Shown: in pieces, positions 8,665-63,712 of the stretch | Numbering within the stretch: position 1 is the first letter of the stretch | How the letters are laid out: every line of letters begins with the position of its first letter | Made by a program: the position numbers and the translations under genes | Source of the DNA: Sphingomonadaceae bacterium PASS1 | GTDB taxonomy: Bacteria > Pseudomonadota > Alphaproteobacteria > Sphingomonadales > Sphingomonadaceae | Length of the DNA stretch: 64,000 nt | Reading direction: 5' to 3' | NCBI GenBank assembly: GCA_002255985.1 | Contig: NKIR01000001.1 | Span: forward strand, 180,914-244,913 | The notes under the pieces: generated by a model | Told to the model about the DNA's origin: nothing | What the model saw: the letters and a program-made list of their open reading frames with translations, nothing else | Databases searched by the model: none

Positions 8665-8686
8665 AATGCAATTCCTGTAGCGCATT
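8665..8686. promoter_or_regulatory. Shared operator AATGC-N12-GCATT (site 1, perfect)
   Basis: Perfect arms around a 12-base spacer, in the divergent gap between the Rieske oxygenase (minus, start 8601) and the SnoaL-like gene (plus, start 8729). Because the SnoaL and TetR genes run in the same direction with a 58-base gap, this site may also control the TetR gene at 9333. The same motif recurs across the window. Confidence 0.75.
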
Positions 8687-8728
8687 GTTTCAAAGGATGC
8701 TAGAGGCGGATATGACACTGGAGACAAT

Positions 8729-9274
8729 ATGGACGAAAAATTGGAGGCACGACTCTGTGAACTGATTGACCGCCAAGACATTTGGACAGTCGTCTTGAAA
8801 TATGCTCGCGGAATCGACCGCCTCGATCGCGACATGGTCCGATCCTGTTATTGGGACGACGCCATCGATGACCATCATGGATATGTAGGTAGCCCGGACT
8901 TTTTCATCGACGTAACATTTGCCGGGGCCCGCGAATCGAGCATAGTTCAGCACCATGGTGTATCCAACTTCACGTGCGAAATAGATGGCGACGAAGCCCA
9001 TTGCGAGACCTATTACACATTCATCGGTGCAAATATCGAGCCACCGCACCTGCTCTCGATGGGACGATATATTGATCATCTTCAACGCCGCGACGGCGTA
9101 TGGAAATACGCCAACCGCGTTACAGTTATTGAAAAGAATTTTTCGCTTACCGAGTATCCGAGTGATGCAATTATTTGTGCGGGCGATACTAGACTGGGCC
9201 CACTGTTACCGGCGACAAGGGATCGCACAGATTTAAGTTATCAGCGCCCTATAGTTCCGCGTTATCCTGTATAG
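8729..9274 (+). CDS. SnoaL-like / NTF2-fold protein
   Basis: A 181-residue protein of the NTF2-like cone fold (SnoaL_4 type). It has the typical opening helix with LIDRQDIWTVVLKYARGIDRLD, the acidic cluster DDAIDDHHG, and alternating C-terminal strands (HCETYYTFIGAN, WKYANRVTVIEKNF). Family members include bile-acid dehydratase BaiE-like enzymes and ring-hydroxylating dioxygenase beta-subunit-like folds; the role here could be a dehydratase, isomerase or structural partner. It is divergent from the Rieske oxygenase with the shared operator between them. A beta subunit for that VanA-type enzyme is not expected, so I do not call it one. Confidence 0.8.
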   Translation: MDEKLEARLCELIDRQDIWTVVLKYARGIDRLDRDMVRSCYWDDAIDDHHGYVGSPDFFIDVTFAGARESSIVQHHGVSNFTCEIDGDEAHCETYYTFIGANIEPPHLLSMGRYIDHLQRRDGVWKYANRVTVIEKNFSLTEYPSDAIICAGDTRLGPLLPATRDRTDLSYQRPIVPRYPV

Positions 9275-9332
9275 CAATGACAAGATTTTTTCATTAAGCA
9301 CCGCAACGGACAGATATGAAGGGGTTATGTAA

Positions 9333-10067
9333 GTGACGGGGTTACCATCAACTGATCGGATTTCCGTGGGCATCGGCGCTCTACGTCGCTCGCCCGTTAA
9401 AACGAAGCGTAAACGTTCGAATCAGGCGGGACGCCCGACGGCCGCTGAACTGGAGCGACGGAAAGAGCGTGTCATGCAAGTGGCAACCGAGTTATTTGTC
9501 GAGCGCGGATTTGCGGCAACATCGCTTGTCGATATCGCTCGCGGTGCGGGTGTTGCAACGCGCACGCTTTATCAGCATTTCGGCGACAAAGAGGTAATTT
9601 TTCGCGAGGTCATTTTCGCAAGGGACGCCGAGGCCGCGCTACAACCGCCCAAAGTGGAACCCGGCGACACCCTTTATAGTGCCCTTCTGAATGCCAGTAA
9701 TTATGCTTACGAGATCACGTATCGCGAACGGTCAATCGGTTTGATGCGGTTGATGATTGCTGAGAGCAATCGCTTTCCGGAATTCATGCAGTCCGTTGCT
9801 AAGTCCATTTTTTCGCATTTTCGAAGCAATATTGAGAAGGTACTTGAAGCATTGGCGGGCGCAGGTTTAATCCCGCAGGGAAATCATGCGCGGTCTGCTG
9901 AATTGTTTTCCGATCTGGTACTCGGCAGTCATCCGATCATGACGTATACCAATTGGGATTCGGCGCTTCCTGGCAAAGCGGATGTCGAAGAACGGCTGGA
10001 AATGTTCATTCTCGGACGCTTTGGGCCAACCGTTGCCAAAAATGCACGCACCAAAAAGGTGAAGTAA
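9333..10067 (+). CDS. TetR-family transcriptional regulator
   Basis: A 244-residue TetR regulator. A basic N-terminal tail (KTKRKRSNQAGRPTAAELERR) precedes the HTH domain (about residues 45-90: ATELFVERGFAATSLVDIARGAGVATRTLYQHFGDKEVIF), then a helical ligand/dimer domain of AefR type. The start is GTG at 9333 with GAAGGGG upstream; no ATG fits. It follows the SnoaL-like gene by 58 bases on the same strand, so it may be read from the promoter with the AATGC-N12-GCATT site at 8665. That makes it a candidate for the regulator of the window-wide motif, by position only. Confidence 0.92.
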   Translation: MTGLPSTDRISVGIGALRRSPVKTKRKRSNQAGRPTAAELERRKERVMQVATELFVERGFAATSLVDIARGAGVATRTLYQHFGDKEVIFREVIFARDAEAALQPPKVEPGDTLYSALLNASNYAYEITYRERSIGLMRLMIAESNRFPEFMQSVAKSIFSHFRSNIEKVLEALAGAGLIPQGNHARSAELFSDLVLGSHPIMTYTNWDSALPGKADVEERLEMFILGRFGPTVAKNARTKKVK

Positions 10068-11666: not shown

Positions 11667-13160
11667 TCAACCCATCGTTGGAATGACGAAGGCGTTGCCG
11701 CCGTCTGTTGATCCATCGGGCCAGCGAGCTGTGACGATCTTGACCTTGGTCCAGAACTTGATGCCTTCCATCCCATATTGGTTCGTATCGCCAAATGCCG
11801 AACGCTTCCAGCCACCAAAGCTGTGATAGGCGACCGGAACGGGAATCGGCACGTTGATGCCGACCATGCCGACATTCACGCGGGCAGCAAACTCGCGTGC
11901 GGCGTGGCCGTTTCGCGTGAAGATCGCGACACCATTGCCGTATTGGTGCTTGCTGGGCAGTGCCAAGGCTTCCTCGAAATTGGCGGCTCGGACCATTTGT
12001 AACACTGGACCGAAGATTTCCTCCTTGTAGCTTTCCATGTCCGTAGTGACATGGTCGAGCAGCGTCGGCCCAACAAAATAGCCGTCCTCATGGCCCTGCA
12101 ACGTGAACCCGCGGCCGTCAACCACCAGTTCGGAGCCTTCGTCGATGGCGGTCTGTATCCAGCCTTCAACCTTGGCCTTGTGTTGAGCAGTAACAACAGG
12201 GCCGTAATGGGCATCGGCATCGGTCGAAATCCCGATGCGCAATGCTTCAATCGCCGGAACCAGCTTCGCACGCAACCGCTCTGCTGTATCCTCACCCACC
12301 GGCACCACCACCGGCAATGCCATGCAGCGCTCTCCCGCACTGCCGAAGGCGGCGCCACACAGATCGTTCACCACCATGTCGAGATCAGCGTCCGGCATTA
12401 CGATACCGTGGTTCTTTGCCCCGCCCATCGCCTGTACGCGCTTGCCTGCTGCGACGCCCCGCGAATAGACATATTGCGCAATGTCCGACGAGCCGACGAA
12501 GCTCACCGCGCCAATTGCGGGATGATCGAGGATCGCATCGACCATTTCCTTGTCGCCGTGCACCACCTGGAAGATTCCAGCGGGAAGGCCCGCTTCCAAA
12601 AACAGTTCAGCCAGACGGTTTGGCACACTGGGGTCACGTTCCGATGGTTTGAGGATGAAGGCATTGCCCACCGCCACCGCGACCGCTCCCATCCATAAAG
12701 GGATCATCGCCGGAAAGTTGAAGGGCGTGATCCCTGCCCCGATGCCGATCGGCTGACGCATTGAATAGACGTCGATGCCGGGGCCAGCGCCTTGGGTATA
12801 TTCGCCCTTCATCGCATGCGGCAAGCCGCAGCAGAATTCGACGACTTCAAGTCCACGCTGGATATCACCTTTGGAATCGTCGATGACCTTGCCATGCTCA
12901 GCGCTCAACATCTCCGCCAACTCGCCGATATGCTTTTCGATCAGCGCCTTGAAATTAAACATAACCCTCGCCCGCCTCTGCGGGTTGGTCATCGCCCACG
13001 CTGTTTGCGCTGACTGAGCAGCAGCAACCGCTTGCTCCAACACCGCCGCATTACCCAGAGCTACGCGTCCCTGAACGCCTCCATTATTTGGGTCCATGAT
13101 GTCGCTGTAACGGGTGGCAACCGGCGTTTCGCCTACGATGACGTGATTGATTTGACGCAT
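11667..13160 (-). CDS. mmsA: Methylmalonate-semialdehyde dehydrogenase (CoA-acylating)
   Basis: A 497-residue aldehyde dehydrogenase that converts methylmalonate (or malonate) semialdehyde with NAD+ and CoA into propionyl-CoA (acetyl-CoA) and CO2. The MmsA hallmarks are present: TPFNFPAMIPLWM (about 145-157), the catalytic cysteine in GERCMALPV (C279), and MGGAKNHG, where Asn replaces the general-base Glu of ordinary aldehyde dehydrogenases. It is the first gene of a minus-strand pair with the acyl-CoA synthetase, and a near-perfect copy of the shared operator lies 118 bases upstream of its ATG. In this locus it could handle a C3 end product of ring or branched-chain breakdown or serve valine/inositol catabolism. 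Confidence 0.93.
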   Translation of the reverse strand: MRQINHVIVGETPVATRYSDIMDPNNGGVQGRVALGNAAVLEQAVAAAQSAQTAWAMTNPQRRARVMFNFKALIEKHIGELAEMLSAEHGKVIDDSKGDIQRGLEVVEFCCGLPHAMKGEYTQGAGPGIDVYSMRQPIGIGAGITPFNFPAMIPLWMGAVAVAVGNAFILKPSERDPSVPNRLAELFLEAGLPAGIFQVVHGDKEMVDAILDHPAIGAVSFVGSSDIAQYVYSRGVAAGKRVQAMGGAKNHGIVMPDADLDMVVNDLCGAAFGSAGERCMALPVVVPVGEDTAERLRAKLVPAIEALRIGISTDADAHYGPVVTAQHKAKVEGWIQTAIDEGSELVVDGRGFTLQGHEDGYFVGPTLLDHVTTDMESYKEEIFGPVLQMVRAANFEEALALPSKHQYGNGVAIFTRNGHAAREFAARVNVGMVGINVPIPVPVAYHSFGGWKRSAFGDTNQYGMEGIKFWTKVKIVTARWPDGSTDGGNAFVIPTMG

Positions 13161-13277: not shown

Positions 13278-13299
13278 AATGACAATAGGTATGTGCATT
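13278..13299. promoter_or_regulatory. Shared operator, near-perfect copy (AATGA-N12-GCATT)
   Basis: Nine of the ten arm bases match the shared operator. It lies 118 bases upstream of the mmsA ATG and fits control of the mmsA-ligase operon. Weaker evidence than the perfect copies. Confidence 0.5.
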
Positions 13300-13472: not shown

Positions 13473-13494
13473 AATGCATCTTTGCTAACGCATT
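13473..13494. promoter_or_regulatory. Shared operator AATGC-N12-GCATT (site 2, perfect)
   Basis: Perfect arms around a 12-base spacer, 133 bases upstream of the ATG of the NDP-forming acyl-CoA synthetase at 13628, which heads a four-gene plus-strand operon. Confidence 0.72.
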
Positions 13495-13627: not shown

Positions 13628-15706
13628 ATGAGCCTCACACCTCTTCTCAAGCCGCGATCCATTGCGATTATCGGTGCGTCGGATAACAAGACGCGCATCG
13701 GCGGGGTTCCGGTTGATTTGCTCAAGCGCGCAGGCTTTGCCAAAATCTATCCCGTCAATCCAAAGAACGAAACCATTCAAGGGATGCGCGCATATAAAGA
13801 TATCGAGTCAGTCCCTGAAGTCGTCGATCTGGCCATTATCGCAGTGTCTGCCGAGGCGACTTTGCCAATGCTTGAACGTTGCCACGCTTTGGGGATACCT
13901 GCGGCAATGGCCTATGCATCGGGCTATGCCGAGACCAATGAGGACGACGGGACGAAGAGGCAGGAAGAGCTGATTGCCTTTACCACCCGCACTGGCATGA
14001 GGGTTGCTGGCCCCAATTGCATGGGTAATGCAAATTTCACCGACGCGATCTTCACCACCTTTGGCCAGTCGTTCCAGCCCGGTGAAGTTGCAGGCAACAC
14101 TGCACTCCTCACACAAAGCGGCAATATGTGCGCCACGGTGTTCCGCATGGCACGGCGTGCGGGGGTTATGTTCAGCCATGTCATCAACACGGGCAACGAA
14201 GCCTCGGTCGATTTCAGTGATTATCTCGATTATCTGGCGGGCGATGACGGCACCCATGCTGCTGTCTGCTATATCGAAGAACTGCGCAACGGGCCAAAAT
14301 TCCTCGCCGCCGCCGCGCGTTTCCGCGCCGCAGGCAAGCTGCTTGCGGTCTATAAGGTCGGCGCATCCGAAAAAGGTGCAGAGGCGACGCGGTCGCACAC
14401 TGCTGCCCTTGCTGGGGACAGCGCAGCTTATGACGCGGCCTTTGCCCGGGCCGGCGTGGCGCGTGCCGGATCGCTCGCCGAATTGGCGGACCTCGCTTAT
14501 CTCCACGGCCTTGGCAAAGGCAAAATCCGAGGCAACAATTGCGCCGTGCTCAGCATTTCAGGTGCCGCTGGTGCAATCCTTGCCGATGCATTGGCGCTGG
14601 CGGGTGGTGATACACCTACCTTCCCGCAGGATGTGCAGGACGGGCTGACCGCACAGATTCCGGGCCACTCGATGGTCTCCAACCCGGTCGATCTGACCGG
14701 CAATATCGTCAATTCGAACGACTTTCTGTTCGAATGCATGAAGCTTGCGCTCCAGCCCGATGATATTGATGTGCTGCTGCTCTATCTGCCCGGCGCGTTC
14801 CTGACAGGTGCACTGGAACAGGTTGAAAAGACCGCAGCTTCAACCAGCAAGACACTGATTGTTATCGACACTTTCGCAATGGCCGATCAGGCACATCTGG
14901 CCGCGCAGGGCATCGGTTATTTTGAGGATTTTGATCGCGCCGCGCGCGCCATCTCGGCTTACGGCGCATGGGCCAAGGGCGGCGAGGATGCGTCGGCCTT
15001 CACTCCCTCGACGATTCAGTGGCCCGCCATCGAAGCCGGACGTAAGGCACTGTCCGAAACCGAAGGCAAGGACGCGCTTGCGCTGTTTGGCGTGCCGGTG
15101 GTGCATGATGCGCTGGTGCAGACCGCCGATGAAGCGCGCAAGGCCGCCGAAGCGGTTGGCTATCCGCTGGTCGCCAAATTGGTCAGCCCCGATGTCGCGC
15201 ACAAGACCGAACACGGCCTCATCCGCCTCTCAATCAAGGATGCCGATGCGGCGGTTGACGCGTTTGAGGCGATGATGGCCAAGGCAAAATCGATGAACGT
15301 GCATATCGAAGGCGTGACGTTCGAACCGATGTTGCAGGGCGGCGTGGAGATTCTCGCTGGCGTCACGCGCGATCCGGTCTTTGGCTGGATGCTGACCGTC
15401 GGCATGGGCGGCGTCTGGACCGAACTAATGAAGGATGCTTGCCACAGCCTGCTGCCCGTTGATGCCACACGCGCCGAAGCGATGCTCCGCAGCCTGAAAG
15501 GCTTTGCCTTGCTCGATGACTATCGCGGTGCGCCCAAGGCCGATGTGGCCGCCGCTGCCAACGCGATCGCGGCGCTTTGCACCGCAGTGCTTGCAGGCGG
15601 TGAGCGTTTGCGCGAAGTTGAAGTCAATCCGCTGCTCGTGATGCCACAAGGCAACGGCGCCGTGGCGGTCGATGCATTAGTGCTGCTGAACGAAGCCGCA
15701 GCGTGA
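13628..15706 (+). CDS. NDP-forming acyl-CoA synthetase (fused alpha-beta ACD)
   Basis: A 692-residue single-chain acyl-CoA synthetase of the acetate--CoA ligase (ADP-forming) superfamily. In order: a CoA-binding Rossmann domain (LLKPRSIAIIGASDN from residue 5), a succinyl-CoA-ligase-like domain with the phosphorylated histidine in RSHTAALAGD (H257, the position known for ACD alpha subunits), and a C-terminal ATP-grasp domain (about 460-692; GYPLVAKLVSPDVAHKTEHG). I start it at the ATG at 13628, which has AAGGAA 10 bases upstream and begins with the conserved domain. It leads the operon with enoyl-CoA hydratase and two acyl-CoA dehydrogenases, so it probably activates, or recovers energy from, a pathway acid. 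Confidence 0.93.
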   Translation: MSLTPLLKPRSIAIIGASDNKTRIGGVPVDLLKRAGFAKIYPVNPKNETIQGMRAYKDIESVPEVVDLAIIAVSAEATLPMLERCHALGIPAAMAYASGYAETNEDDGTKRQEELIAFTTRTGMRVAGPNCMGNANFTDAIFTTFGQSFQPGEVAGNTALLTQSGNMCATVFRMARRAGVMFSHVINTGNEASVDFSDYLDYLAGDDGTHAAVCYIEELRNGPKFLAAAARFRAAGKLLAVYKVGASEKGAEATRSHTAALAGDSAAYDAAFARAGVARAGSLAELADLAYLHGLGKGKIRGNNCAVLSISGAAGAILADALALAGGDTPTFPQDVQDGLTAQIPGHSMVSNPVDLTGNIVNSNDFLFECMKLALQPDDIDVLLLYLPGAFLTGALEQVEKTAASTSKTLIVIDTFAMADQAHLAAQGIGYFEDFDRAARAISAYGAWAKGGEDASAFTPSTIQWPAIEAGRKALSETEGKDALALFGVPVVHDALVQTADEARKAAEAVGYPLVAKLVSPDVAHKTEHGLIRLSIKDADAAVDAFEAMMAKAKSMNVHIEGVTFEPMLQGGVEILAGVTRDPVFGWMLTVGMGGVWTELMKDACHSLLPVDATRAEAMLRSLKGFALLDDYRGAPKADVAAAANAIAALCTAVLAGGERLREVEVNPLLVMPQGNGAVAVDALVLLNEAAA

Positions 15707-15723
15707 CGATTGGAGAAGATGTC

Positions 15724-16620
15724 ATGAACGATTTGGTAGAGCCCAAAGCCGTCGAGATTACCTACGAAACCGATGAACCGATTCTGTATGAAGTGGTGGA
15801 CGGCGTCGCGTGGATCACGATGAACCGCCCCGGTTTCAACAACGCCCAAAATGGCCAGATGACCTACGCGCTCGATGATGCGTTCCAGCGTGCGACCAAT
15901 GATGACGCGGTCAAATGCATCGTGCTGGCTGGCAATGGCAAGCATTTTAGCGCGGGCCATGACATCGGCACGCCGGGCCGAGATCTCCATCATGAATTCG
16001 ACAAGCGCTTGATGTTTGGCACCCACACTAACAAGCCGGCGGCTGAGCTGTTATACACCCGCGAGCAAGAGCAATATCTCGGCATGTGCCGCCGCTGGCG
16101 CGACGTGCCAAAGCCTACCATTGCTATGGTACAAGGCGCGTGCATTGCGGGCGGACTGATGCTGGCATGGGTCTGCGATTTGATCGTCGCTTCGGAAGAC
16201 GCCTTCTTTCAAGACCCGGTCAACCCGCTGATGGGGATTCCCGGCGTCGAATATTTCGCCCACGCCTATGAACTGCCGCCGCGTGTAGCCAAGGAATTTT
16301 TGTTGCTGGGTGAACGCATGAACGCCGCCCGCGCCTATAGCTTTGGTATGGTCAACAAGGTCGTCCCGCGTGAGGAACTGCACGAGGCAACCAATGCTTG
16401 GGCGACGAAGTTGGCGGGTCAAAACCGGCTTGGCAACTGGTTAACCAAGCAATCGGTCAACCATGTCGAGGAACTGCGCGGCAAGCGCTCTGCCATGGAC
16501 GCGGTGTTCCATATGCATCACTTTGCCCATGCGCAGAATGATCTGGTGAAGGGCGATTCTATCGCCGGGGTAAGCGGCAAATCGGCTGCGGATTCGAACA
16601 AAAAGGCTGCCGCTGAATGA
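15724..16620 (+). CDS. Enoyl-CoA hydratase/isomerase family protein
   Basis: A 298-residue crotonase-fold protein. Visible are VAWITMNRPGFNNAQN, the oxyanion-hole segments GKHFSAGHDIG (about 75-85) and VQGACIAGGLMLAWVCD (about 135-151), and DPVNPLMGIPGVEYF near the second catalytic site. Hydration of an enoyl-CoA is the likely role, but the second acidic residue is not obvious, so isomerase or hydrolase activity remains possible. The ATG at 15724 has GGAGAAG 8 bases upstream. It lies between the acyl-CoA synthetase and an acyl-CoA dehydrogenase, whose start overlaps its stop (ATGA). Confidence 0.92.
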   Translation: MNDLVEPKAVEITYETDEPILYEVVDGVAWITMNRPGFNNAQNGQMTYALDDAFQRATNDDAVKCIVLAGNGKHFSAGHDIGTPGRDLHHEFDKRLMFGTHTNKPAAELLYTREQEQYLGMCRRWRDVPKPTIAMVQGACIAGGLMLAWVCDLIVASEDAFFQDPVNPLMGIPGVEYFAHAYELPPRVAKEFLLLGERMNAARAYSFGMVNKVVPREELHEATNAWATKLAGQNRLGNWLTKQSVNHVEELRGKRSAMDAVFHMHHFAHAQNDLVKGDSIAGVSGKSAADSNKKAAAE

Positions 16621-17777
16621 TCCTAGAATACACTCCAGAACAACGCGCCTTCCGCGCCGAAGTGCGTGCGTGGATGGAGGCGAATGTCCCTAAAACCCGT
16701 CTGCCCTCTTTCGACCTGACGGAGGAAGGGTTTGAAGCCCACCGCGATTGGGAGCGCACGCTGCACGAAGGCAAATGGGGGATGGTGACTTGGCCCGAAG
16801 CCTATGGCGGCCGAGCGCTTGACCTGATCCGCTGGTTAATTTTCGAAGAAGAATATTACCGTGCAGGTGCACCTACTCGGGTCAACCAGAATGGTATTTT
16901 CCTGCTCGGTCCAACGATCATGGAGTTTGGCACCGAAGAGCAAAAGGCCCGCATACTGACACGGATGGCGGCTGGCGATGACATCTGGGCGCAGGCATGG
17001 TCCGAACCTGGCGCAGGCAGCGATCTCGCAGCCGTGCGCTCGACCTGCACACGCGAGGGGGATGAATACATCCTCAACGGGCAGAAAATCTGGTCGACCC
17101 GCGCAGTCTTTGCCGATTGGGCATTCGGCCTGTTCCGCGAGCCCGGCAGCGAGCGGCACAAGGGCATGAGCCTGATCTTCTTCCCACTTAATGCCCCAGG
17201 CGTTACTCGTCGTCCGATTGCGCGGATGGACGGCGAGATGGTGTTTGCCGAAATCTTCCTCGACAATGTTCGCGTGCCCGTGGCCGACCGACTGGGCGAC
17301 GAAGGCCAAGGCTGGCATGTCTGTATGGCGACTGCTGGCTTTGAACGCGGGCTGATGCTGCGCTCTCCGGCGCGATATCAGGTCGCAGCGTCGCGCCTGA
17401 TCGCGCTTTATGAGGCGAACAAGGCGAACCTGCCCGCATCGATAAAAGAACGCGTGGCGCAGCATTGGATGGATGCCGAAGCCTATGCGCTCTCTATCTA
17501 TTCGACCGCGTCGCGGTTGCAGGCAGGCGGTACGATCGGACCTGAGTCTTCGACCAACAAGATTTTCTGGTCGGAGATGGACGTGGCATTACACCAGACC
17601 GCGCTCGACATTTTGGGGCCGCGTGCGGAGCTGTTGGGGCAAGCCAGCGACGGTGTGTCGAGCGTCGATTGGCTAGACGGCTTTATCTTCGCGTTGGCCG
17701 GACCAATCTATGCCGGATCTAACGAGATTCAGCGCAATATCATTGCCGAGCGGATGCTTGGCCTTCCGAGAGCTTAA
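16617..17777 (+). CDS. Acyl-CoA dehydrogenase, larger subunit of a probable heteromeric pair
   Basis: A 386-residue FAD-dependent acyl-CoA dehydrogenase. The flavin/substrate signature WSEPGAGSDLAA is near residue 124, with KIWSTRA after it and the C-terminal AGSNEIQRNIIAERMLGLPR. It is followed after 3 bases by a shorter dehydrogenase (17781-18809), the arrangement of the alpha2-beta2 enzymes known from steroid side-chain breakdown (FadE28/FadE29, ChsE1/ChsE2). It starts inside the stop of the enoyl-CoA hydratase gene. Desaturation of a bulky acyl-CoA is the likely role. Confidence 0.93.
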   Translation: MILEYTPEQRAFRAEVRAWMEANVPKTRLPSFDLTEEGFEAHRDWERTLHEGKWGMVTWPEAYGGRALDLIRWLIFEEEYYRAGAPTRVNQNGIFLLGPTIMEFGTEEQKARILTRMAAGDDIWAQAWSEPGAGSDLAAVRSTCTREGDEYILNGQKIWSTRAVFADWAFGLFREPGSERHKGMSLIFFPLNAPGVTRRPIARMDGEMVFAEIFLDNVRVPVADRLGDEGQGWHVCMATAGFERGLMLRSPARYQVAASRLIALYEANKANLPASIKERVAQHWMDAEAYALSIYSTASRLQAGGTIGPESSTNKIFWSEMDVALHQTALDILGPRAELLGQASDGVSSVDWLDGFIFALAGPIYAGSNEIQRNIIAERMLGLPRA

Positions 17778-17780
17778 GCC

Positions 17781-18809
17781 ATGCAATTTGCATTCACTGA
17801 AGACCAGCTGACCATCTCCCAAGCCGCACGAGACATGCTGGTGGAAACCTGCACACCTGCCGAACTACGCAAGCAGCTGGAGGCTGGAAAGCCACGCGAT
17901 GATGCGCGCTGGAGCACCATTTCCGAAATGGGCCTAATCGGCATGCTCGCCCCCGAAAACGCGGGCGGCCTTGGCATGACTATGGTGGACCTGATCGGCA
18001 TTGCCGAGGCCGCAGGTTATGTTGGCCTGCCTGAACCTTTGGTCGAACAGGCTGGGGTAGTGGTGCCCCTCCTGGCACGGCTCGATGATAATCGCGATTG
18101 GCTGGGTAAGGTGCTGGCTGGCGCAGTTGTGGCGATTGGCCATCCGGTCAATCCGTTCGTCGCCAATGCCGACAGTGCCGACGCGCTGTTGCTGGCCGAT
18201 GGTGACGATATCCACCTTATTGCGCCGGGCGACGTGACGTTGACCCGTGCGGAGAGCTTTGATCCCTTCCGCCGTTTATTCTCGGTCCAATGGACCCCGA
18301 GCGCCTCCACCAAAGTCGGAAGCGATTGGGGCGACACCGCAGATCGCGGCGCATTGCTCGCAGCGGCTGAAATGATCGGCCTCGCCCAACGTAGCATCGA
18401 CCTCGCGGTGGCTTATGCCAAGGACCGCGTCCAGTTCGGTAAGCCCATCGGCACGACGCAGGCGATCAAGCACATGATTGCCTCCGCCCAGGTCAAGGTG
18501 GAATTCGCCCGTCCCGTCGTCCACGCCGCCGCCGCCGAACTCCCCGTCGGCACCCTGGCCGCTCGTGCCCGCATCGCCCACGCCAAAATCGCCGCCGGCT
18601 CCGCTGCCGACGTCGCGACCCGCATGGCTGTGCAAGCGCACGGCGCGATGGGGATGACCTGGGAGGTGGACCTGCACTTCTTCCTGAAACGCGCTTTTGC
18701 GCTTAATTATGCGTGGGGGACGCCAACCCAGCACCGAGAAACGGTTATGGCGCGGGTGGAATCCGTAAGGACGGGACCGGATGCGACGTTTGCGGCTGAG
18801 TTGAGCTAA
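17781..18809 (+). CDS. Acyl-CoA dehydrogenase, shorter partner subunit
   Basis: A 342-residue acyl-CoA dehydrogenase with a reduced middle domain. The N-terminal helical domain (FTEDQLTISQAARDML) and the C-terminal helical bundle (AYAKDRVQFGKPIGTTQAIKH, AVQAHGAMGMTWE) are clear, but the WSEPGAGSD-type motif of the larger subunit is missing. That matches the degenerate partner of heterotetrameric acyl-CoA dehydrogenases. Last gene of the synthetase-hydratase-dehydrogenase operon; it ends tail to tail with the NTF2-like gene at 18816. Confidence 0.92.
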   Translation: MQFAFTEDQLTISQAARDMLVETCTPAELRKQLEAGKPRDDARWSTISEMGLIGMLAPENAGGLGMTMVDLIGIAEAAGYVGLPEPLVEQAGVVVPLLARLDDNRDWLGKVLAGAVVAIGHPVNPFVANADSADALLLADGDDIHLIAPGDVTLTRAESFDPFRRLFSVQWTPSASTKVGSDWGDTADRGALLAAAEMIGLAQRSIDLAVAYAKDRVQFGKPIGTTQAIKHMIASAQVKVEFARPVVHAAAAELPVGTLAARARIAHAKIAAGSAADVATRMAVQAHGAMGMTWEVDLHFFLKRAFALNYAWGTPTQHRETVMARVESVRTGPDATFAAELS

Positions 18810-18815: not shown

Positions 18816-19208
18816 TCAAAACCCCGGCGTAACAACCTCCCTCTCACCCGGATCGAATGCCGCCGACAGGTCGATATATTCATCCAGCCGGGCTATCTTA
18901 CCGTCCTGCACCTGTACGACAACACACACCGGCCAGGCTTTGCGAACGCCATCCTTCCCGCGCACGACGAACAGATGCTGTTGCACATAACCGGTTGGCG
19001 TCTGCTGGCGACGGACGTCTGCGACCCCACGTTCGCTGAAGCTTGTGGCCATCCCCTCCCACGATTTGACGACATCGTCGGGCCGCATCGCTTTGCGGTC
19101 AAAACTGTGCCAGACAATGGCGTCTTCTGTCAGGCAATCGCGTAGCACGTCCGTGTCGCACGGCTGCATGGAGCCGAAAAAGCGGTCGATGATGTTCTGT
19201 TCAGCCAT
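18816..19208 (-). CDS. SnoaL-like / NTF2-fold protein
   Basis: A 130-residue NTF2-like protein: opening helix NIIDRFFGSMQPCDTDVLRDCL, a strand with DAIVWHSFDRKA, and a C-terminal core with VVVQVQDGKIARLDEYID. Members act as small isomerases, dehydratases or binding proteins, and the reaction is not evident. Its start overlaps the thioesterase end by 8 bases, so the two form a minus-strand pair read from the divergent promoter near 19720. Confidence 0.8.
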   Translation of the reverse strand: MAEQNIIDRFFGSMQPCDTDVLRDCLTEDAIVWHSFDRKAMRPDDVVKSWEGMATSFSERGVADVRRQQTPTGYVQQHLFVVRGKDGVRKAWPVCVVVQVQDGKIARLDEYIDLSAAFDPGEREVVTPGF

Positions 19209-19674
19209 CGCTGTTCATTCCTTCCTTGGTCTGCCGCAGCAGAAGTGTTTCAAGATTGCAACGCAGCCCTTCGGGCAGGGCCGCCGCACCGGTTGCATCG
19301 GCGATTACCAGCGTGGTTTCTGCATAGATGGCAGTGCGGCCCTTTTGGCGGGCGACCTGCTGGATGGTGAAAGAGGTGCGGCCAATTTTCGAAACGGCCG
19401 TCAATATCTCGATTTCGCCCGGATGGGTCAGTTCGGCGGCATATTCGATAGTGATGCCCGCGACCATCGGGCGGCGACCGCCAAGATGACCGCGCATATC
19501 CACCGCTTTGTTGAAATCAACGCGGGCTTCCTGAAGAATGACCGGAACCGCCGCGTTGTTAACATGACCTTGCAGATCAAGATCAGCAAAGCGCGTGGGA
19601 ATGGTGACTGCCGCCGGGAAAATCGCCTTATCCAAAGTGGCGCGGTCTAGGCGGGCCAATGCTGTTCCTTTCAT
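19201..19674 (-). CDS. Hotdog-fold acyl-CoA thioesterase (4HBT type)
   Basis: A 157-residue hotdog-fold protein with the 4-hydroxybenzoyl-CoA-thioesterase-type motif RFADLDLQGHVNNAAVPVILQEAR (shown in parts: RFADLDLQGHVNN; aspartate D33-D35 region). It probably hydrolyses a pathway acyl-CoA to free acid and CoA. It is the first gene of a minus-strand pair with an NTF2-like protein. A perfect copy of the shared operator lies 45 bases upstream of its ATG, divergent with the SMP-30-type lactonase. Confidence 0.88.
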   Translation of the reverse strand: MKGTALARLDRATLDKAIFPAAVTIPTRFADLDLQGHVNNAAVPVILQEARVDFNKAVDMRGHLGGRRPMVAGITIEYAAELTHPGEIEILTAVSKIGRTSFTIQQVARQKGRTAIYAETTLVIADATGAAALPEGLRCNLETLLLRQTKEGMNSDG

Positions 19675-19719: not shown

Positions 19720-19741
19720 AATGCACAAGACGAATGGCATT
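19720..19741. promoter_or_regulatory. Shared operator AATGC-N12-GCATT (site 3, perfect)
   Basis: Perfect copy between the thioesterase (minus, start 19674) and the SMP-30-like gene (plus). An ATG at 19734 in frame with the SMP-30 gene falls inside the motif, which argues that translation starts further down, at 19764. Confidence 0.72.
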
Positions 19742-19763
19742 ATTGAACATGGGATTTAGCGAC

Positions 19764-20642
19764 ATGACAGAGGTCACCCTGGCACTGGATGCACAGAATC
19801 ATCTGGGCGAATCACCGATGTGGTCGGCGCGGGACCAGGCCTTATGGTGGGTGAATTGCGAACTGCCGCCCGAACTCCACCGATGGCATCCGGAAAGCGG
19901 CGCGCACGACATCTGGCCCATGCCGCAGCGTATTGGTGGCTTTGTGCACAAGGCTGGCGGCGGATTGCTGCTTGCATTGGCGGATGGCATTTTTGATTTC
20001 GATATGGAGAGCGAGGCGCTCACGTTGCGCGCTCCATCGCCATTGCCACCGCATGTCAAGTTACACGAATGCGGTTGTGACCGGCAGGGGCGATTGTGGG
20101 TAGGTTCTTTTGATCATCATTTTCCGGCGGACCGGGGCGCGGCGGGCGGGGCGTGGTTCCGGCTCGACGGCAGTGTGCTGACGCCAGTGATCGACGGCGT
20201 GTCGGTTTCCAATGGCCTTGCATTCAGCCCGGACGGGCAGACACTCTACTGCTCTAACACGCCCAGTCGCTGTGTTGAAGCCTTTGAGATCGATCCTGAA
20301 ACCGGAGCCTTATTCAACCGACGCATTTTCCTGTCGCTTGCCCCCAGTGACGGCCATATCGACGGGGCAACAGTCGATGTGGACGGCGGATACTGGCTTG
20401 CGGTGGTCGCCACTGGCACGGTACGCCGTTACTTTCCCGATGGCACGCTCGACCGCACCATTGCCCTGCCCTGTTCCAACCCGACCAAGCCGGCCTTTGG
20501 CGGCGCGGATATGAAAACCCTTTTCGCAACCTCGACCAAGATGGTTATCAAGTCAGACTCAGCCGGCGCGGAATTAAATGGCGCGCTATTTGCAGTGCAG
20601 GCCGGATTTATAGGTATCGACGAGGCATTATTTGCATCCTAA
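19764..20642 (+). CDS. SMP-30/gluconolactonase/LRE-family protein
   Basis: A 292-residue six-bladed beta-propeller of the SMP-30/gluconolactonase family, which hydrolyses lactones with a divalent metal. Family marks: LGESPMWSARDQALWWVN at the N-terminus (metal Glu), the blade HECGCDRQGRLWVGSF, SNGLAFSPDGQTLYCSNT (metal Asn/Asp) and DGATVDVDGGYWLAVV. In the window it could open a lactone made by the Baeyer-Villiger monooxygenase, though the two are far apart. I choose the ATG at 19764 over 19734 and 19749 because the homologous region starts there and the earliest ATG lies inside an operator copy. Confidence 0.88.
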   Translation: MTEVTLALDAQNHLGESPMWSARDQALWWVNCELPPELHRWHPESGAHDIWPMPQRIGGFVHKAGGGLLLALADGIFDFDMESEALTLRAPSPLPPHVKLHECGCDRQGRLWVGSFDHHFPADRGAAGGAWFRLDGSVLTPVIDGVSVSNGLAFSPDGQTLYCSNTPSRCVEAFEIDPETGALFNRRIFLSLAPSDGHIDGATVDVDGGYWLAVVATGTVRRYFPDGTLDRTIALPCSNPTKPAFGGADMKTLFATSTKMVIKSDSAGAELNGALFAVQAGFIGIDEALFAS

Positions 20643-20694: not shown

Positions 20695-20716
20695 AATGCG
20701 ATTATGCTGTTGCATT
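20695..20716. promoter_or_regulatory. Shared operator AATGC-N12-GCATT (site 4, perfect)
   Basis: Perfect copy 87 bases upstream of the acyl-CoA dehydrogenase ATG at 20804. The bases around its right arm, TGCATTTATTTCC (20711-20723), are identical to those at 50710-50722 around another copy. Confidence 0.75.
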
Positions 20717-20803: not shown

Positions 20804-21775
20804 ATGTACCTCGTTCCTGATGGCGATGAACTTGAAATTGCCAACGCGGCCGCAGAGTTTCTTGCGGATGCGATGACGATTGACCGGCTTCATGGTCCGT
20901 CGCCTGCCGATATGGGCGACGATTTGCGACAGCAATTGGGCGATATGGGCTGGTATGCGCTTGCCTTGCCCGAGGAAGTCGGCGGCAGCGGCCTTTCGGC
21001 AATCGAATTTGCACTATTTTTCCGCGAAGTCGGTCGCCAATGCGGACCCGTGGATGTACTGGCGCAGTGCCTCGCCGCGATGACAGTGACGGACGCGCCG
21101 CTGCGGAGCGAGATCACTAGCGGTGCTGTTGGCATCGCACTAGCTGTCACCGACAGTGCTGCAGTACGGCTCTTCGGCTCCGGCGACGCGAAATATGCAA
21201 TTTGGGCCAATTGCGATGCGGCTGAACTGATTTCGCTGGGCGATGCATCGACAGAAAGCCGGCCGTCGCTTGATCCTTCTAACTCGATGAGAGTCACCGG
21301 CGCTTCGACGTCTTCCATTGCATCGCGCAGCGGTGATTTTGTGTGGCGAATGGGGCAATTGGCGACCGCGGCGCAGCTTGTGGGCCTCGCCGAGGCAGCA
21401 CTCGACCAGATCGTCGAATATGCCAAAGTGCGCGAAACATTTGGCAAGAAAATCGGGTCGTGGCAGGCAGTCCGGCACCCATGCGCAGATATGGCTGTCC
21501 GGCTGGAGGCGGCGAGGTCGCAATTATGGTTCGCGGCAACCGCAATGAAGGAAAGCCGTCGGGATGCGGGCGTACATCTGGATGCGGCCAAGCATCTGGC
21601 GAACCTTGCGGCGGCGGCGAACACCGATACCAACATCCAGTTGCACGGCGGAATCGGCGTGACCGATGAACACCACGCCCATTTGTACATGAAGCACGCG
21701 CTGGTCCTGATCAAAATGTTCGGCGCGCGACGCGATTTGCTCGGTCGCTTGCTCCACGCCAGTGTGGACGACTGA
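20804..21775 (+). CDS. Acyl-CoA dehydrogenase, shorter partner subunit (second pair)
   Basis: A 323-residue acyl-CoA dehydrogenase with a shortened middle domain: N-terminal helices (LEIANAAAEFLAD, WYALALPEEVGGSGLSAIE) and a C-terminal bundle (YAKVRETFGKKIGSWQAVRHPCADMAV, IQLHGGIGVTDEH). It resembles the degenerate partner subunits of alpha2-beta2 acyl-CoA dehydrogenases and is followed after one base by the full-length subunit. The start at 20804 has a strong GGGAGG 7 bases upstream; an upstream in-frame ATG has no such site. It leads a four-gene operon behind a perfect operator copy. Confidence 0.92.
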   Translation: MYLVPDGDELEIANAAAEFLADAMTIDRLHGPSPADMGDDLRQQLGDMGWYALALPEEVGGSGLSAIEFALFFREVGRQCGPVDVLAQCLAAMTVTDAPLRSEITSGAVGIALAVTDSAAVRLFGSGDAKYAIWANCDAAELISLGDASTESRPSLDPSNSMRVTGASTSSIASRSGDFVWRMGQLATAAQLVGLAEAALDQIVEYAKVRETFGKKIGSWQAVRHPCADMAVRLEAARSQLWFAATAMKESRRDAGVHLDAAKHLANLAAAANTDTNIQLHGGIGVTDEHHAHLYMKHALVLIKMFGARRDLLGRLLHASVDD

Positions 21776-21776
21776 T

Positions 21777-28372: not shown

Positions 28373-28387
28373 GCGCGCCAGCGGAAA

Positions 28388-31373: not shown

Positions 31374-31408
31374 TCAGTGTGCTTCAACTCACTCAGGCAA
31401 TGTTCTAT

Positions 31409-32360: not shown

Positions 32361-32382
32361 AATGCCATAGATGATATGCATT
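32361..32382. promoter_or_regulatory. Shared operator AATGC-N12-GCATT (site 5, perfect; F420 operon)
   Basis: Perfect copy in front of the LLM oxidoreductase, the first gene of the seven-gene F420 operon. It places F420 biosynthesis under the same predicted control as the catabolic operons. Confidence 0.75.
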
Positions 32383-34860: not shown

Positions 34861-34882
34861 AATGCATATCGCTATGTGTAAT
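34861..34882. promoter_or_regulatory. Shared operator, degenerate copy (AATGC-N12-GTAAT)
   Basis: Eight of ten arm bases match the shared operator, 64 bases upstream of the TonB receptor ATG. An additional TAATGCA follows at once. Could be a weak site; listed with low confidence. Confidence 0.35.
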
Positions 34883-38803: not shown

Positions 38804-38825
38804 AATGCAATGCGCGTAATGAATT
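38804..38825. promoter_or_regulatory. Shared operator, near-perfect copy (AATGC-N12-GAATT)
   Basis: Nine of ten arm bases match, 144 bases upstream of the TonB receptor ATG at 38970. The left flank GACATTAATGCAAT (38799-38812) is identical to that of site 1 (8660-8673). Confidence 0.55.
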
Positions 38826-46745: not shown

Positions 46746-46906
46746 GATCATCCGCCCTAATCCTTGCAGAAATTATTGCAATAGGCGAGGTTCATTTAAT
46801 CTTTCGTTGCTTTGAAATACGCCCCCTGCGGCACCCACTGTGATCCCTTTCCGCCCGTGAAAAATTGCCCTAGAGGTGATATCCATGACTGTCCGGGGTA
46901 AGCAAT

Positions 46907-50693: not shown

Positions 50694-50715
50694 AATGCAC
50701 ATCTAGCAATGCATT
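50694..50715. promoter_or_regulatory. Shared operator AATGC-N12-GCATT (site 6, perfect)
   Basis: Perfect copy in the divergent gap between the SDR operon (minus) and the Rieske oxygenase-amidohydrolase operon (plus, ATG at 50788). It could control both directions. Confidence 0.75.
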
Positions 50716-50787: not shown

Positions 50788-52173
50788 ATGGCTAACCATC
50801 CTTTGAGTGCGCTTGAAACAGTTCCCCACCGGATTACCAATCCCGAGCTGATCCCGGCGGAACGCTATTATGATCCGGCGTTCTTCGAATTGGAAAAGGA
50901 AAAGCTTTGGCCGCATGTCTGGCAAATGGCCTGTCGGTTAGAGGAAATCCCGAACATCGGCGACTATGTCGAATATACGATTCTCGCGAAATCGGTTATC
51001 ATTGTGCACACAAAGAGCGGCGTAAAGGCATTCCACAACGCCTGCCGCCACCGCGGAGTGCGTTTGGCAACGGGGCCGGGCAATTGCAAAACTTCGGGTT
51101 TCATTTGCCCGTTCCACGGTTGGCGCTGGAACGCAGAGGGCAAGAATACCTTCGTCTTTGGCAAACAGGTGTTCAATGAGGAGTTGCTCGACAAGGCGGA
51201 GATTGACCTCAAGCCCTGCCGTATAGAATTTTGGGCGGGATGCGCCTTTATCAATTTCGATGATAGCGCACCTTCGCTGATCGAAAGCCTCGGTCCGGTG
51301 GCTGACCGGTTGAATGCACGCAATGCTGATAAGCTAAAAATGGACTGGTGGTATGCCACTGTCTTGCCGACCAACTGGAAGCTTGCGATGGAGGCTTTTC
51401 AAGAAGGCTATCACACCATGAAGACCCATCCGCAGCTCAATACGCTGTCGGCGCTGGGCAATCCGTATGGCAACGATGCCGAAGGCTTGACCCCGAACAA
51501 GGGCATCACGGCCAAGGAGACGGTGGGCATAAACATCGAATTCATGAAACGTCTGAGTTCGGGCATGGGAGGGATGGTCCACGAAACCGAAATCGCGGCG
51601 ATGGAAAAGCTCGCTGACATGGAAGTGCCGGACGATCCAGTCCAAGCGACCATGATGTTCTACGGTGCGGCCAATGACATTGTGACCAAAGACGGCCGGG
51701 CGCGCGGTGCGCCTATGTTTGATGTCAACAAAGTCATGCAGGAACAGCCTTTCCACGCGGTGGAGTTCATGTTCCCGCACTTCTTCCTGCTGCCGATGAT
51801 CGCAGCAATGTCATCCTATCGCATCCGGCCATTGACACCAGAGACCTGCCTGTTTGAAATCTGGTCACTCGTCTTGCGACCCGAGGATGAGGAATATGAC
51901 ACGCCAAAAGAGCCGACCATATTGCCCTATAACAGCGACCTATTCCCAGAAATCCCGCAGCAGGATTATGCCAATCTGCCGCGCCAGCAACTGGGTCTGC
52001 ATGCCGATGGCTTTACCCATATGCGGTTGTCGCATTCGCATGAGGGGATGATCAGCAATTACCAGCGTCTGATCGATGGCTATCTGGCGGGCATCGAACC
52101 CGATCTGCTCGCCAAGGCGCAACATGCCGTCAACAGCGGATTTGAATCGCCGATTGTCGATATCGGCTTTTAG
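50788..52173 (+). CDS. Aromatic ring-hydroxylating dioxygenase alpha-subunit-like Rieske protein
   Basis: A 461-residue Rieske oxygenase of the RHO alpha-subunit type. The [2Fe-2S] site is CRHRG (about 87-91) and CPFHGW (about 107-112); the mononuclear iron site is in MEAFQEGYHTMKTHPQ (about 205-220). No beta subunit, ferredoxin or reductase gene is in the window, so it is either homomeric or borrows electrons. It leads a four-gene operon with a D-aminoacylase-type amidohydrolase, an amidohydrolase-2 protein and an AMP ligase. Hydroxylation or demethylation of a ring substrate is likely. Confidence 0.92.
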   Translation: MANHPLSALETVPHRITNPELIPAERYYDPAFFELEKEKLWPHVWQMACRLEEIPNIGDYVEYTILAKSVIIVHTKSGVKAFHNACRHRGVRLATGPGNCKTSGFICPFHGWRWNAEGKNTFVFGKQVFNEELLDKAEIDLKPCRIEFWAGCAFINFDDSAPSLIESLGPVADRLNARNADKLKMDWWYATVLPTNWKLAMEAFQEGYHTMKTHPQLNTLSALGNPYGNDAEGLTPNKGITAKETVGINIEFMKRLSSGMGGMVHETEIAAMEKLADMEVPDDPVQATMMFYGAANDIVTKDGRARGAPMFDVNKVMQEQPFHAVEFMFPHFFLLPMIAAMSSYRIRPLTPETCLFEIWSLVLRPEDEEYDTPKEPTILPYNSDLFPEIPQQDYANLPRQQLGLHADGFTHMRLSHSHEGMISNYQRLIDGYLAGIEPDLLAKAQHAVNSGFESPIVDIGF

Positions 52174-61711: not shown

Positions 61712-62202
61712 CCCATCGCTCCTTTTGCCCGCATAATTTTCAGGATCAGGTCGCGGTGGAAATGGTTGGCGCGGATGCCCGAGAGCGCCATGGTCATCTC
61801 GCGGTTCTTGCCCGATGCAAATCCCGACGCTGCCGTGGTCCAGATTACGCAAGCTTTAACTGCCGTGAACAGCAGCCACCAATCGAGCGCTACGCGGTCA
61901 ACCGTCATTCCGCTCGTGGGGCGCATGACGACAATCCGGGTACGGTAGGGTGCCGTCCCCGACACGCGTGCAGTCCATCGCCCATCCGAAGCCAGGGGTT
62001 GTGGCGCGGAATAGGAATTTGCCACTCCCGAAACGAAATATTCGTTCGTTGTGTAGCCCAACTTTGCAACGTCATATGTTCCCGTCATCAGCGTCGGCAC
62101 GCCTTCGATAGGTGCAACTTCGGGCGATTTCGCTTCGGCTGTATCGATTGTAAGCGCCGCCGCCAGCAGCACTCCGGTTATCGCACAAAGAAACTTCAAC
62201 AT
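61708..62202 (-). pseudogene. Chimera: hydrolase N-terminus joined to phosphotransferase C-terminus
   Basis: A 164-residue ORF that reads as two unrelated pieces. Residues 1-97: a signal peptide (cut near TAEA, residue 24) and the N-terminus of the secreted PF20091-type alpha/beta hydrolases (LGYTTNEYFVSGVANSY, DGRWTARVSGTAPYRTRIVVMRP). After this the family would continue with F-x-G-T-V-x-V-E-W-L-N, which is absent. Residues about 98-164 instead match the C-terminal helices of APH phosphotransferases (LDWWLLFTAVKACVIWTTAASG, GKNREMTMALSGI). The join is near 61910. A deletion that fused two genes in frame is the simple explanation. Neither piece keeps a catalytic residue, so I call it a pseudogene; a secreted product remains possible. 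Confidence 0.6.
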
Positions 62203-62264
62203 CCTGTTCGTCCCAATTTACGAAAATTCATGTCGGCGAAATCACTAATCTACATTCGATCAAA

Positions 62265-63374
62265 TCATTTCAGATGCTTCTGAAAGAATTTGGCGATAGC
62301 CGCATAGGCATCCTGAGCCTCGGGCACATTGGCGGAATAGATATAGCAATGCCCAAGCCCCTCGCCGACAATCAGTTCTGACGCAACGTCTGCCTTGAGG
62401 AGTTGGTTATGCGTATAAATAGCCGGGCTCATGTCCGATGCGCGCGTGCCAGTGATCACCAACGTTGGTGGAAATTTCGCGAGCACATCAAGATGCCCGG
62501 CAGGTGAAACCATCGGATCATTGGCCTCTACGCCCTCAAAATAGGACATCATCGTTTTCATCAACCCCGATGGTGGCTTAGTCGATCCCGCAGGTGGCGG
62601 CGGCGGGAATGCGCCGTCCACATAGCCCGCGATATAGCTTGAATCGCCTGTGGCGAAACGCGCCGCTCCAGAGCCAAAAATTCCAATCGCCGCCGGTTGC
62701 GGCAGGCCTTGTTTGGGCAACCAAGCGGCCACCTGAGCTGACAAAGCGCCACCTGCAGAACAGCCATAAATCCCGATCTGCGAGGATTTGTAAGTTTTGA
62801 GCAGTTCCCGATACACTGCGGCGACATCCTCAGTCGCGGCGGGGAATTTTGCCTCAGGCCCCTGGCGATAATTTACACTGATAACTTTGTATTTTCCAAC
62901 AGAGGCAATCGGCAGCGATTCAAGGATCGCGCAAGCATCGGCACAGACCGAAAAACCGCCGCCATGAAGATTGATCAGAACCCGATTGGGCTGGGTTTTT
63001 TCGCCTTTGGGAGTGATGACACGGGTTGGCACTCCGGCAATTTTCTGTTCGACAATATCGGCCGGATATCGCTCATGCATCATCTTTACGGACGGGGCTA
63101 AAACCATCTCCATGCCCATCCGCATGGTTGCGATGTCGAGATTATCCGGCATCGAGAAAGATGGCATGCCGGCGCGGGCGCGAAGCGAGTCAGCGGCTTC
63201 CTTGCTCATAAAGCTCGAAGGCGGCAAATCGAACGCGGGCACATGCACTGTGCCGTCCTTTTCAAAAGTCGGACGGGGGCTTGGCGTGTCTTGCGCCGAT
63301 ACAGGCATTTGTATTACGCTGATGGCGGCCAATTCGAAAAGACCCAGCGTTAGCATTGCTTTGGAAATCTTCAT
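62265..63374 (-). CDS. Secreted alpha/beta-hydrolase, HSL-type esterase
   Basis: A 369-residue esterase/lipase of the hormone-sensitive-lipase group. A signal peptide (cut near PVSA, residue 27) sends it to the periplasm or outside. Catalytic parts: oxyanion LHGGGF, nucleophile serine in YGCSAGGAL, and the later TGTRASDMSP (Asp) and GLGHCYIY (His). The ATG at 63374 has GGAGG 7 bases upstream. It would hydrolyse an ester or lactone outside the cytoplasm, perhaps to make the substrate transportable. First gene of the minus-strand group with the chimera (62-base gap). Confidence 0.9.
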   Translation of the reverse strand: MKISKAMLTLGLFELAAISVIQMPVSAQDTPSPRPTFEKDGTVHVPAFDLPPSSFMSKEAADSLRARAGMPSFSMPDNLDIATMRMGMEMVLAPSVKMMHERYPADIVEQKIAGVPTRVITPKGEKTQPNRVLINLHGGGFSVCADACAILESLPIASVGKYKVISVNYRQGPEAKFPAATEDVAAVYRELLKTYKSSQIGIYGCSAGGALSAQVAAWLPKQGLPQPAAIGIFGSGAARFATGDSSYIAGYVDGAFPPPPPAGSTKPPSGLMKTMMSYFEGVEANDPMVSPAGHLDVLAKFPPTLVITGTRASDMSPAIYTHNQLLKADVASELIVGEGLGHCYIYSANVPEAQDAYAAIAKFFQKHLK

Positions 63375-63712
63375 CTTCGTACCTCCGAAATATGTCAGCA
63401 TCCGCCGGTCATTCACGATTCTGGACAGAACAGCCCGTTAGCAATCGTGATGGTCCCCGTTGAGACATTTGAAATGCCGAGGATAACGCGATTCAACTAT
63501 AATGCAATGCACACGTATCGCAGCATTATGTGTTTTCGCTGGCCGACTTTCTTACCGCTGTTACAGATCGGAGCCGGTTGCGCGCGTTTGCTGCTATATT
63601 GCAATTGCAAACGCGCAAATCATTCGGTAGCTCACCGTCGCTATAGTCAACCATAGCAAACTCAGCCGAGGCGCGTAAAACTCAAGTCGCCTGCAACAAT
63701 CAAGGTTCGTCC
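63375..63712. other. Divergent intergenic region
   Basis: A 338-base gap between the secreted esterase and the malonyl-CoA synthetase-like gene. It holds one perfect operator copy (63506-63527), preceded directly by an extra AATGC half-site at 63501-63505. No small gene, RNA or terminator is visible. Confidence 0.6.
63506..63527. promoter_or_regulatory. Shared operator AATGC-N12-GCATT (site 7, perfect)
   Basis: Perfect copy 131 bases upstream of the esterase ATG and 185 bases upstream of the malonyl-CoA synthetase-like ATG. The outer bases also pair as ATAATGC (63499-63505) with GCATTAT (63523-63529). Confidence 0.75.

Follow-up and report, generated by a model that had tools for sequence, protein, structure and literature searches.

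The palindrome AATGC-N12-GCATT recurs in promoter gaps of a 64,000-nt stretch of contig C4 (797 kb) in the 3.07-Mb draft genome of Sphingomonadaceae bacterium PASS1 (herein the window; coordinates without a contig name refer to it). We consider it likely that this palindrome is the operator of the TetR/AcrR-family regulator encoded at 9366-10067 (herein TetR 9366), which is predicted to act as a pathway-wide repressor over a catabolic island of ∼170 kb to which the window belongs. The sites and genes on which the argument leans are collected in Table 1.

A sequence-only reading of the window had placed seven perfect copies of the palindrome in promoter gaps, always with a 12-base spacer. A pattern search recovered all seven at the same positions, together with its near copies at 13278 and 38804 (one arm mismatch each) and 34861 (two). 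The assertion that this number is not random also stands: windows simulated with a first-order Markov model average 0.255 perfect copies (maximum of 2 in 200 runs), and the arm counts of 117 and 115 give 0.21 expected pairs, so that the Poisson P(≥7) is 3e-9. The fixed spacer holds across the 170-kb island, where 10 perfect copies have a spacer of 12 and at most 2 have any other spacer (0 to 30 tried). All seven window copies lie outside called genes, in a window with a non-coding share of 7.5%. For site 13473 this placement hinges on the choice of start: the longest open reading frame (ORF; 13427 through 15706) would include it, and the gene caller used starts the gene at 13628, leaving the site intergenic; its counterpart in G591, a related genome, lies wholly upstream, with 212 bp between its end and the start called for the ortholog. 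Looser forms of the motif are uninformative, as the window holds 54 matches with up to two mismatches against 56.5 expected. One further site (46775), missed by the sequence-only reading, has two arm mismatches and a matrix score of 21.4 without having been used in training; site 63506 has perfect arms yet scores weakly (14.2).

A whole-genome scan had been proposed beforehand as the refutation test, and in it the motif was neither as common inside genes as in promoters nor a dispersed repeat. Of 17 perfect copies genome-wide, 13 are on C4, and all 10 in the island are intergenic. Outside the island, five of the six copies examined lie inside called genes (C4:42927, C4:431911, and one each on C20, C21, and C26); C4:408354 is intergenic, and a seventh copy is on C29. 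A symmetric matrix built from 18 hand-picked intergenic sites was scanned over C4:1-440000 with called genes, and its top 25 matches are all intergenic and all within C4:132,923-320,770. Seventeen of these are in the training set; because training sites were chosen to be intergenic, only the 8 untrained matches (one overlapping a trained site) test the placement. A 23-site matrix gives scores of at least 16 at 26 places in the island, one of which lies entirely within a called gene, and at a single place outside; at a score of at least 13, the ∼270 kb of C4 outside the island hold 8 sites, 3 of which are in genes. A sequence model of the 23 island sites returned 25 rows at E ≤ 10 genome-wide (both strands counted), all in C4:133-280 kb, and nothing beyond reached the match list; 150 of 648 candidates were scored, and the 23 model-building sites match by construction.

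An intergenic site scoring at least 15 lies within 350 bp upstream of 31 of the 153 island genes, in 19 promoter regions, 12 of them shared by divergent gene pairs and 7 serving one start. In 32 site-gene pairs the site lies 2 to 199 bp from the called start codon, and 26 of these distances are between 16 and 145 bp. Three promoter regions have two sites 114 to 195 bp apart (C4:132923/133037, 13278/13473 in the window, and C4:280012/280196), which would possibly allow looping. An intergenic operator-like site at C4:320770 (score 17.2) stands ∼19 kb past the last other site. A site-like match at C4:252744-252765, beside a divergent P450 gene, is labelled coding at the start of gene C4:251966-252829(-); this gene may begin further in, and a similar match in G591 (C3:360391) overlaps a gene start.

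The make-up of 50 sites (23 from the PASS1 genome and 27 from G591) gives the consensus tAWTGCAmhw-N4-wdkTGCAWTa with strong arms AWTGC/GCAWT. Position 3 is an invariant T and position 4 a nearly invariant G; position 2 varies between A and T, position 5 is C and sometimes A, and position 6 is mostly A. The motif is thus a dyad of strong outer arms and weaker inner contacts, with a weak base preference reaching 3 bases outside the palindrome and inward to position 9. From 6 bases outside onward the information is at most 0.09 bits, so the motif is not part of a long repeat. These sites were chosen by matrix or pattern and hence lean toward the motif; 27 of 33 G591 sites were used, those dropped (242410, 257308, 349991, 360391, 387419, and 394014) being coding, overlapping, partly coding, or low scoring.

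The sites are conserved in G591, which has an orthologous island with many proteins 60 to 95% identical. A matrix trained only on the PASS1 genome finds 33 sites scoring at least 13 in ∼175 kb of this island (29 fully intergenic, two of which overlap each other; 2 partly coding; 2 fully coding) and zero in the adjoining 124 kb. Counted without a matrix, perfect copies in the G591 island number 10 at spacer 12 and at most 2 at any other spacer, and the flank has none. Comparison of 14 aligned sites between the two genomes shows that the arms are identical at 130/140 bases (93%), the spacers at 128/168, and the flanks at 1146/2070 (55%). The set covers 13 intergenic regions hand-picked for conserved neighbors, with the F420-operon site unaligned and counted as mismatched; the F420 gene run in G591 has a site ∼97 bp upstream that has no base-by-base alignment with site 32361.

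Beyond G591, we compared orthologs, positioned by tblastn, in 22 TetR-anchored loci (21 plus one from another search); all were fetched via the TetR and are therefore no independent sample. An upstream site is present for 19/33 orthologs of site-bearing genes versus 23/126 of other genes (p = 1.7e-5), a contrast that fades as the cut-off is raised to 15 (16/33 versus 20/126; p = 1.9e-4) and 17 (10/33 versus 16/126; p = 0.019). Retention is uneven, from 6/6 TetR loci for acyl-CoA dehydrogenase 20804 and 3/4 for the OB-fold/thiolase operon to 1/6 for the lactonase (score of at least 13) and 0/3 for the EthD gene C4:172873. Orthologs of the flavin monooxygenase 44719-46671 have a site in L074, L075, and G591, as does that of the Rieske oxygenase 50788-52173 in L059; the ortholog of TonB receptor 32521-34797 has one in L059 and G591 and none scoring at least 13 in L077. 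Some of the 23 site-bearing other genes lie mid-run here and stand alone behind a promoter elsewhere, such as the OYE-type reductase C4:275585 with upstream sites in L060 and L063; the operator therefore seems to follow promoters rather than gene order. The simple gene caller is poor on some high-GC loci, calling zero genes in 3 of 21 and labelling some sites coding although they lie between tblastn-found orthologs.

TetR 9366, the candidate reader of these sites, has the N-terminal TetR helix-turn-helix (HTH) domain (PF00440, E = 7.6e-16) and TetR_C_7 (PF14246, E = 3.2e-9), and the best solved matches to its AlphaFold model (pLDDT 84.4, pTM 0.71) are TetR-family structures. In 23 orthologous sequences, the other 22 being 54 to 79% identical to TetR 9366, the HTH helix VATRTLYQHFGDKE is nearly invariant and the C-terminal domain variable, as expected if the operator is kept. 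The gene is second behind a site, in the order site, SnoaL, TetR, both here (8665) and in G591, and is directly behind one in L060 and L063.

The sequence-only reading had named this TetR and LysR 2008 as candidate regulators, and co-occurrence with the motif across genomes strongly supports the TetR. Among 396 genomes of the order, two match TetR 9366 at E ≤ 1e-25, G000 (PASS1 itself) and G370, which shares its genus with G591; in genus g29, 17 of 195 genomes match at E ≤ 1e-40. An ortholog is absent at E ≤ 1e-15 from 44 other genomes of PASS1's own genus, searched for the TetR and not for the island. With the motif model, 19 of the 396 order genomes match at E ≤ 1; G000 accounts for 17 rows and each of the remaining genomes for 1 or 2. 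Outside G000, the best match is G370, with a site 2 kb from its TetR. The order scan was filtered more strictly than the scan of TetR-bearing genomes, so that their rates are not comparable, and the scan of 41 g29 genomes is the better control: the motif occurs in 6, comprising 4/4 with the TetR and 2/37 without it (p = 1.5e-4). Three genomes whose TetR matches are partial or distant have no motif-model match at E ≤ 3. Perfect-match counts in relatives are uninformative (40 of 41 genomes have some), because a genome contains several background copies of the exact pattern. At the locus level, a site scoring at least 13 is present in every one of the 21 loci whose TetR match (54 to 76%) is near full length (44 sites in 342 kb), and 18 of these loci contain one scoring at least 16 (33 sites); the other 5 of 26 TetR-anchored loci (L078 and four distant ones) have zero sites. 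A plasmid origin is unsupported, as none of the 415 plasmid records matching the TetR reaches 60% identity, and the 20 matches listed are at 27 to 34%. On contig C1 of G551 (g29) there are four TetR relatives (58, 58, 58, and 39% identity), one with an internal stop.

Several observations weigh against assigning the sites to TetR 9366. G476 has no TetR at E ≤ 1e-40 and yet has a site at E = 0.044; conversely, 6 of 20 TetR-bearing genomes have no motif-model match at E ≤ 3 (the other 14 have one), and L078, a 71% match over only ∼105 residues near a contig end, has no site. By chance, one site scoring at least 13 is expected per ∼34 kb, so that a locus with just one weak site is little evidence. 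Several loci have no site directly upstream of the TetR, and in L060 and L063 the site is shared with a divergent gene. Co-occurrence could point to the island rather than its reader: five regulators were noticed in the island (LysR 2008, TetR 9366, GntR/FCD 46973, and, by eye, the TetR-like C4:154824 and C4:168989), four of which (both TetRs 9366 and 168989, LysR, and GntR) have G591 orthologs. The arm centers, 17 bp apart, are also wide for one TetR dimer. A single dimer across this distance would be unusual, and two cooperating dimers would fit; QacR-type TetR repressors, which bind as two overlapping dimers, have long operators of this sort.

Other readers of the sites were weighed against the same data. 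LysR 2008, or a regulator encoded outside the island, is an unlikely reader. The LysR is 84% identical in G591, and the ortholog searches across genomes covered TetR 9366, the GntR, and the second TetR; however, no listed site is near the LysR gene in either genome, the TetR-anchored loci have no LysR ortholog of at least 38% within the up to 10 kb covered on each side, and a general sphingomonad regulator would predict the motif in TetR-less genomes, where it is rarely seen. We regard the GntR/FCD regulator as quite improbable in this role. It has an upstream site here (46775) and in G591 (342977) with different divergent neighbors, and its ortholog is present in 10 of 21 TetR-bearing genomes; it is missing at E ≤ 1e-20 in the 11 others, including G434, G437, and G441 through G444, each of which has 4 to 10 motif rows (both strands counted). 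FCD-type GntR operators usually have short centers, which also counts against it. The GntR was rejected as the reader because its gene is absent from many motif-bearing genomes. It is probably a member of the regulon and, since it has an upstream site in both genomes despite the different neighbors, may be a second-tier regulator within it.

The second island TetR (C4:168989-169570, TetR-like by eye) has a 74% ortholog in G591 and is a highly improbable reader. A match of at least 70% is found in only 2 of 21 TetR-bearing genomes (G591 and G439), the other matched genomes reach at most 41%, and 11 have no match; nor is it among the genes with an upstream site. It was rejected for want of a match of at least 70% in 19 of these 21 genomes. 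That the palindrome is a dispersed repeat or a chance pile-up without regulation has a negligible probability. The total at up to two mismatches equals expectation, and perfect copies outside the island fall mostly in genes (five of six examined), as chance copies would; against this, seven perfect copies are present where ∼0.2 are expected, at spacer 12 alone, those of the island are intergenic, and sites are conserved at orthologous promoters with no similarity beyond the palindrome. The chance and repeat readings were rejected on the spacer-12 enrichment, the conserved arms, and the lack of flanking similarity.

We return to TetR 9366 as the predicted reader. From the sites, their placement and conservation, and the co-occurrence with the TetR, we infer the following course of binding, repression, and induction. 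In the uninduced state, one TetR dimer, or a cooperating pair of dimers, would occupy the sites and block the 31 site-bearing island genes and the genes that follow them, its own gene included. A substrate intermediate, plausibly an acyl-CoA or a polycyclic acid, would release the TetR, and uptake, oxygenases, CoA ligases, acyl-CoA dehydrogenases, thiolases, and F420 supply would come on together. Sites lying 2, 7, and 16 bp ahead of called start codons would fit steric repression; repression released by a pathway metabolite is favored by the TetR family, the start-proximal sites, the single sites between divergent genes, and the position of the TetR behind a site. A wider picture, to which we give equal weight for and against, is that this one TetR controls, as master switch, a whole catabolic island of ∼170 kb that moves horizontally and makes F420 on demand for an F420-dependent step in the breakdown of a polycyclic, steroid- or terpenoid-like compound, and that operator and switch moved together as operons rearranged among Sphingomonadaceae and Caulobacteraceae.

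Such an arrangement has parallels in known systems. In actinobacteria, KstR/KstR2 place one TetR over a large steroid-type catabolic regulon, with an operator unlike that found here; KstR2 is a remote match to TetR 9366 (E = 7.6e-8 in the HTH; TM 0.40). MexL (8wrf), FrrA (6g8g), NalC (8ke8), and AefR (3cdl) share the TetR fold at 25 to 28% identity (Foldseek E = 2.6e-8 to 6.8e-5), a likeness in fold only, with no operator or pathway shown in common. Closest in host group is EdcR of Caenibius tardaugens, a sphingomonad TetR repressor of a steroid (estradiol) catabolic cluster, whose palindrome covers −10 boxes and recurs in weaker form at the promoter of EdcR itself (PMC8700777). EdcR differs in its operator (TnnCnnTACnAnTnGTAnnGnnA, which the make-up of the 50 sites does not match), in having TetR_C_11 where TetR 9366 has TetR_C_7, and in acting at four promoters versus the 19 site-bearing promoter regions here (PMC8700777). 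The closest functional parallel is MbdR of Azoarcus sp. CIB, a TetR that acts through ATAC-N10-GTAT at several promoters of one cluster, its own included, with 3-methylbenzoyl-CoA as inducer (PMC4424350); the two share a wide-spaced palindrome and multi-promoter cluster control, with an acyl-CoA as the inducer of MbdR. MbdR has other half-sites and another spacer, not matched by the 50-site make-up, far fewer promoters, and an anaerobic aromatic pathway. PheR is an IclR repressor with a different motif (PMC13273656), and two short palindromes near the TetR of bile-salt genes are unlike the motif here (PMC12882949).

The gene content of the island points to a polycyclic alicyclic substrate of steroid- or terpenoid-like character. 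The three Rieske oxygenases are of VanA_C, Ring_hydroxyl_A, and KshA_C types (KshA_C E = 1.6e-25). Several matches fall below their cut-offs: two KstD-like dehydrogenases at 654 and 624 bits (NCBIfam cut-off 789), a BaiCD-like flavoenzyme at 272 bits (825), a CoA ligase weakly matching steroid-24-oyl-CoA synthetase at 308 bits (750), and a lipid-transfer-type thiolase at 361 bits (436). Flavin monooxygenases, a P450, paired acyl-CoA dehydrogenases, an AtuA protein, TonB receptors, and MFS carriers are also present. No HsaC-type extradiol dioxygenase or HsaD was seen among the ∼68 of 153 island proteins scanned, and no aimed search for them was made. The F420 run is complete, with CofC, CofD, and F420 ligase above Pfam cut-offs and NADPH-dependent F420 reductase, CofGH, and a TIGR03619 F420-dependent oxidoreductase above NCBIfam cut-offs; a complete F420 biosynthesis run thus sits inside a sphingomonad catabolic regulon. 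APH/ecdysteroid-kinase-like genes occur at 48-2017 and 47633-48685, one of which neighbors an acyl-CoA dehydrogenase. By eye, the product of the gene that begins at 63713(+) was judged CoA-ligase-like. An apparent transposase/integrase-like gene (by eye) at C4:129972-130865 lies immediately to the left of the first operator and may be close to the border of the island; the GC content of the island (0.55 to 0.58 per 20 kb) shows no departure from the rest of the contig.

Table 1. Predicted operator sites and associated genes in the window (sites in order of position; TetR 9366, the F420 run, and the GntR regulator last)
Feature	Position	Strand	Context
Operator site, perfect	8665-8686		Between Rieske oxygenase 7543-8601(-) and SnoaL-TetR genes 8729-10067(+); G591 counterpart C3:270433
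Operator site, 1 mismatch	13278-13299		Upstream of aldehyde dehydrogenase 11667-13160(-); G591 counterpart 275278
Operator site, perfect	13473-13494		Upstream of ATP-grasp CoA ligase and following genes 13628-18809(+); G591 counterpart 275401
Operator site, perfect	19720-19741		Between thioesterase 19201-19674(-) and SMP-30 lactonase 19749-20642(+); G591 counterpart 281833
Operator site, perfect	20695-20716		Upstream of acyl-CoA dehydrogenase pair 20804-22955(+); also in G591
Operator site, perfect	32361-32382		Upstream of F420-dependent oxidoreductase and F420 biosynthesis genes 26143-32314(-)
Operator site, 2 mismatches	34861-34882		Upstream of TonB receptor 32521-34797(-); untrained matrix match
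Operator site, 1 mismatch	38804-38825		Upstream of TonB receptor 38970-41672(+)
Operator site, 2 mismatches, matrix-found, untrained	46775-46796		Between flavin monooxygenase 44719-46671(-) and GntR/FCD regulator 46973-47623(+)
Operator site, perfect	50694-50715		Between SDR/acyl-CoA dehydrogenase/APH genes 47633-50605(-) and Rieske oxygenase 50788-52173(+)
Operator site, perfect arms, weak inner match	63506-63527		Between alpha/beta hydrolase 62265-63374(-) and gene from 63713(+)
TetR/AcrR-family regulator (TetR_N, TetR_C_7 AefR-like), proposed operator reader	9366-10067	+	Second gene behind site 8665; longest ORF from 9333
F420 gene run	26143-32314	-	CofC, CofD, F420 gamma-glutamyl ligase, NADPH-dependent F420 reductase, CofGH, F420-dependent oxidoreductase
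GntR/FCD regulator	46973-47623	+	Site 46775 upstream

Judged by titles and the opening of abstracts, no paper listed in the literature searches describes the operator, the regulator, or the regulon; the search by motif letters is weak, and many journals lie outside its coverage. Judged from sequence comparison, the regulon is real and conserved, with a strong candidate regulator; its kind is already known, and this instance was not found described. For a large uncharacterized catabolic island, parts of which recur in many sphingomonads, the analysis supplies a candidate regulator, an operator that can be tested, and a list of targets. The target list defines the genes of one program, F420 synthesis included, and thereby narrows the search for the substrate, which the TetR, used as a sensor, could serve to identify.

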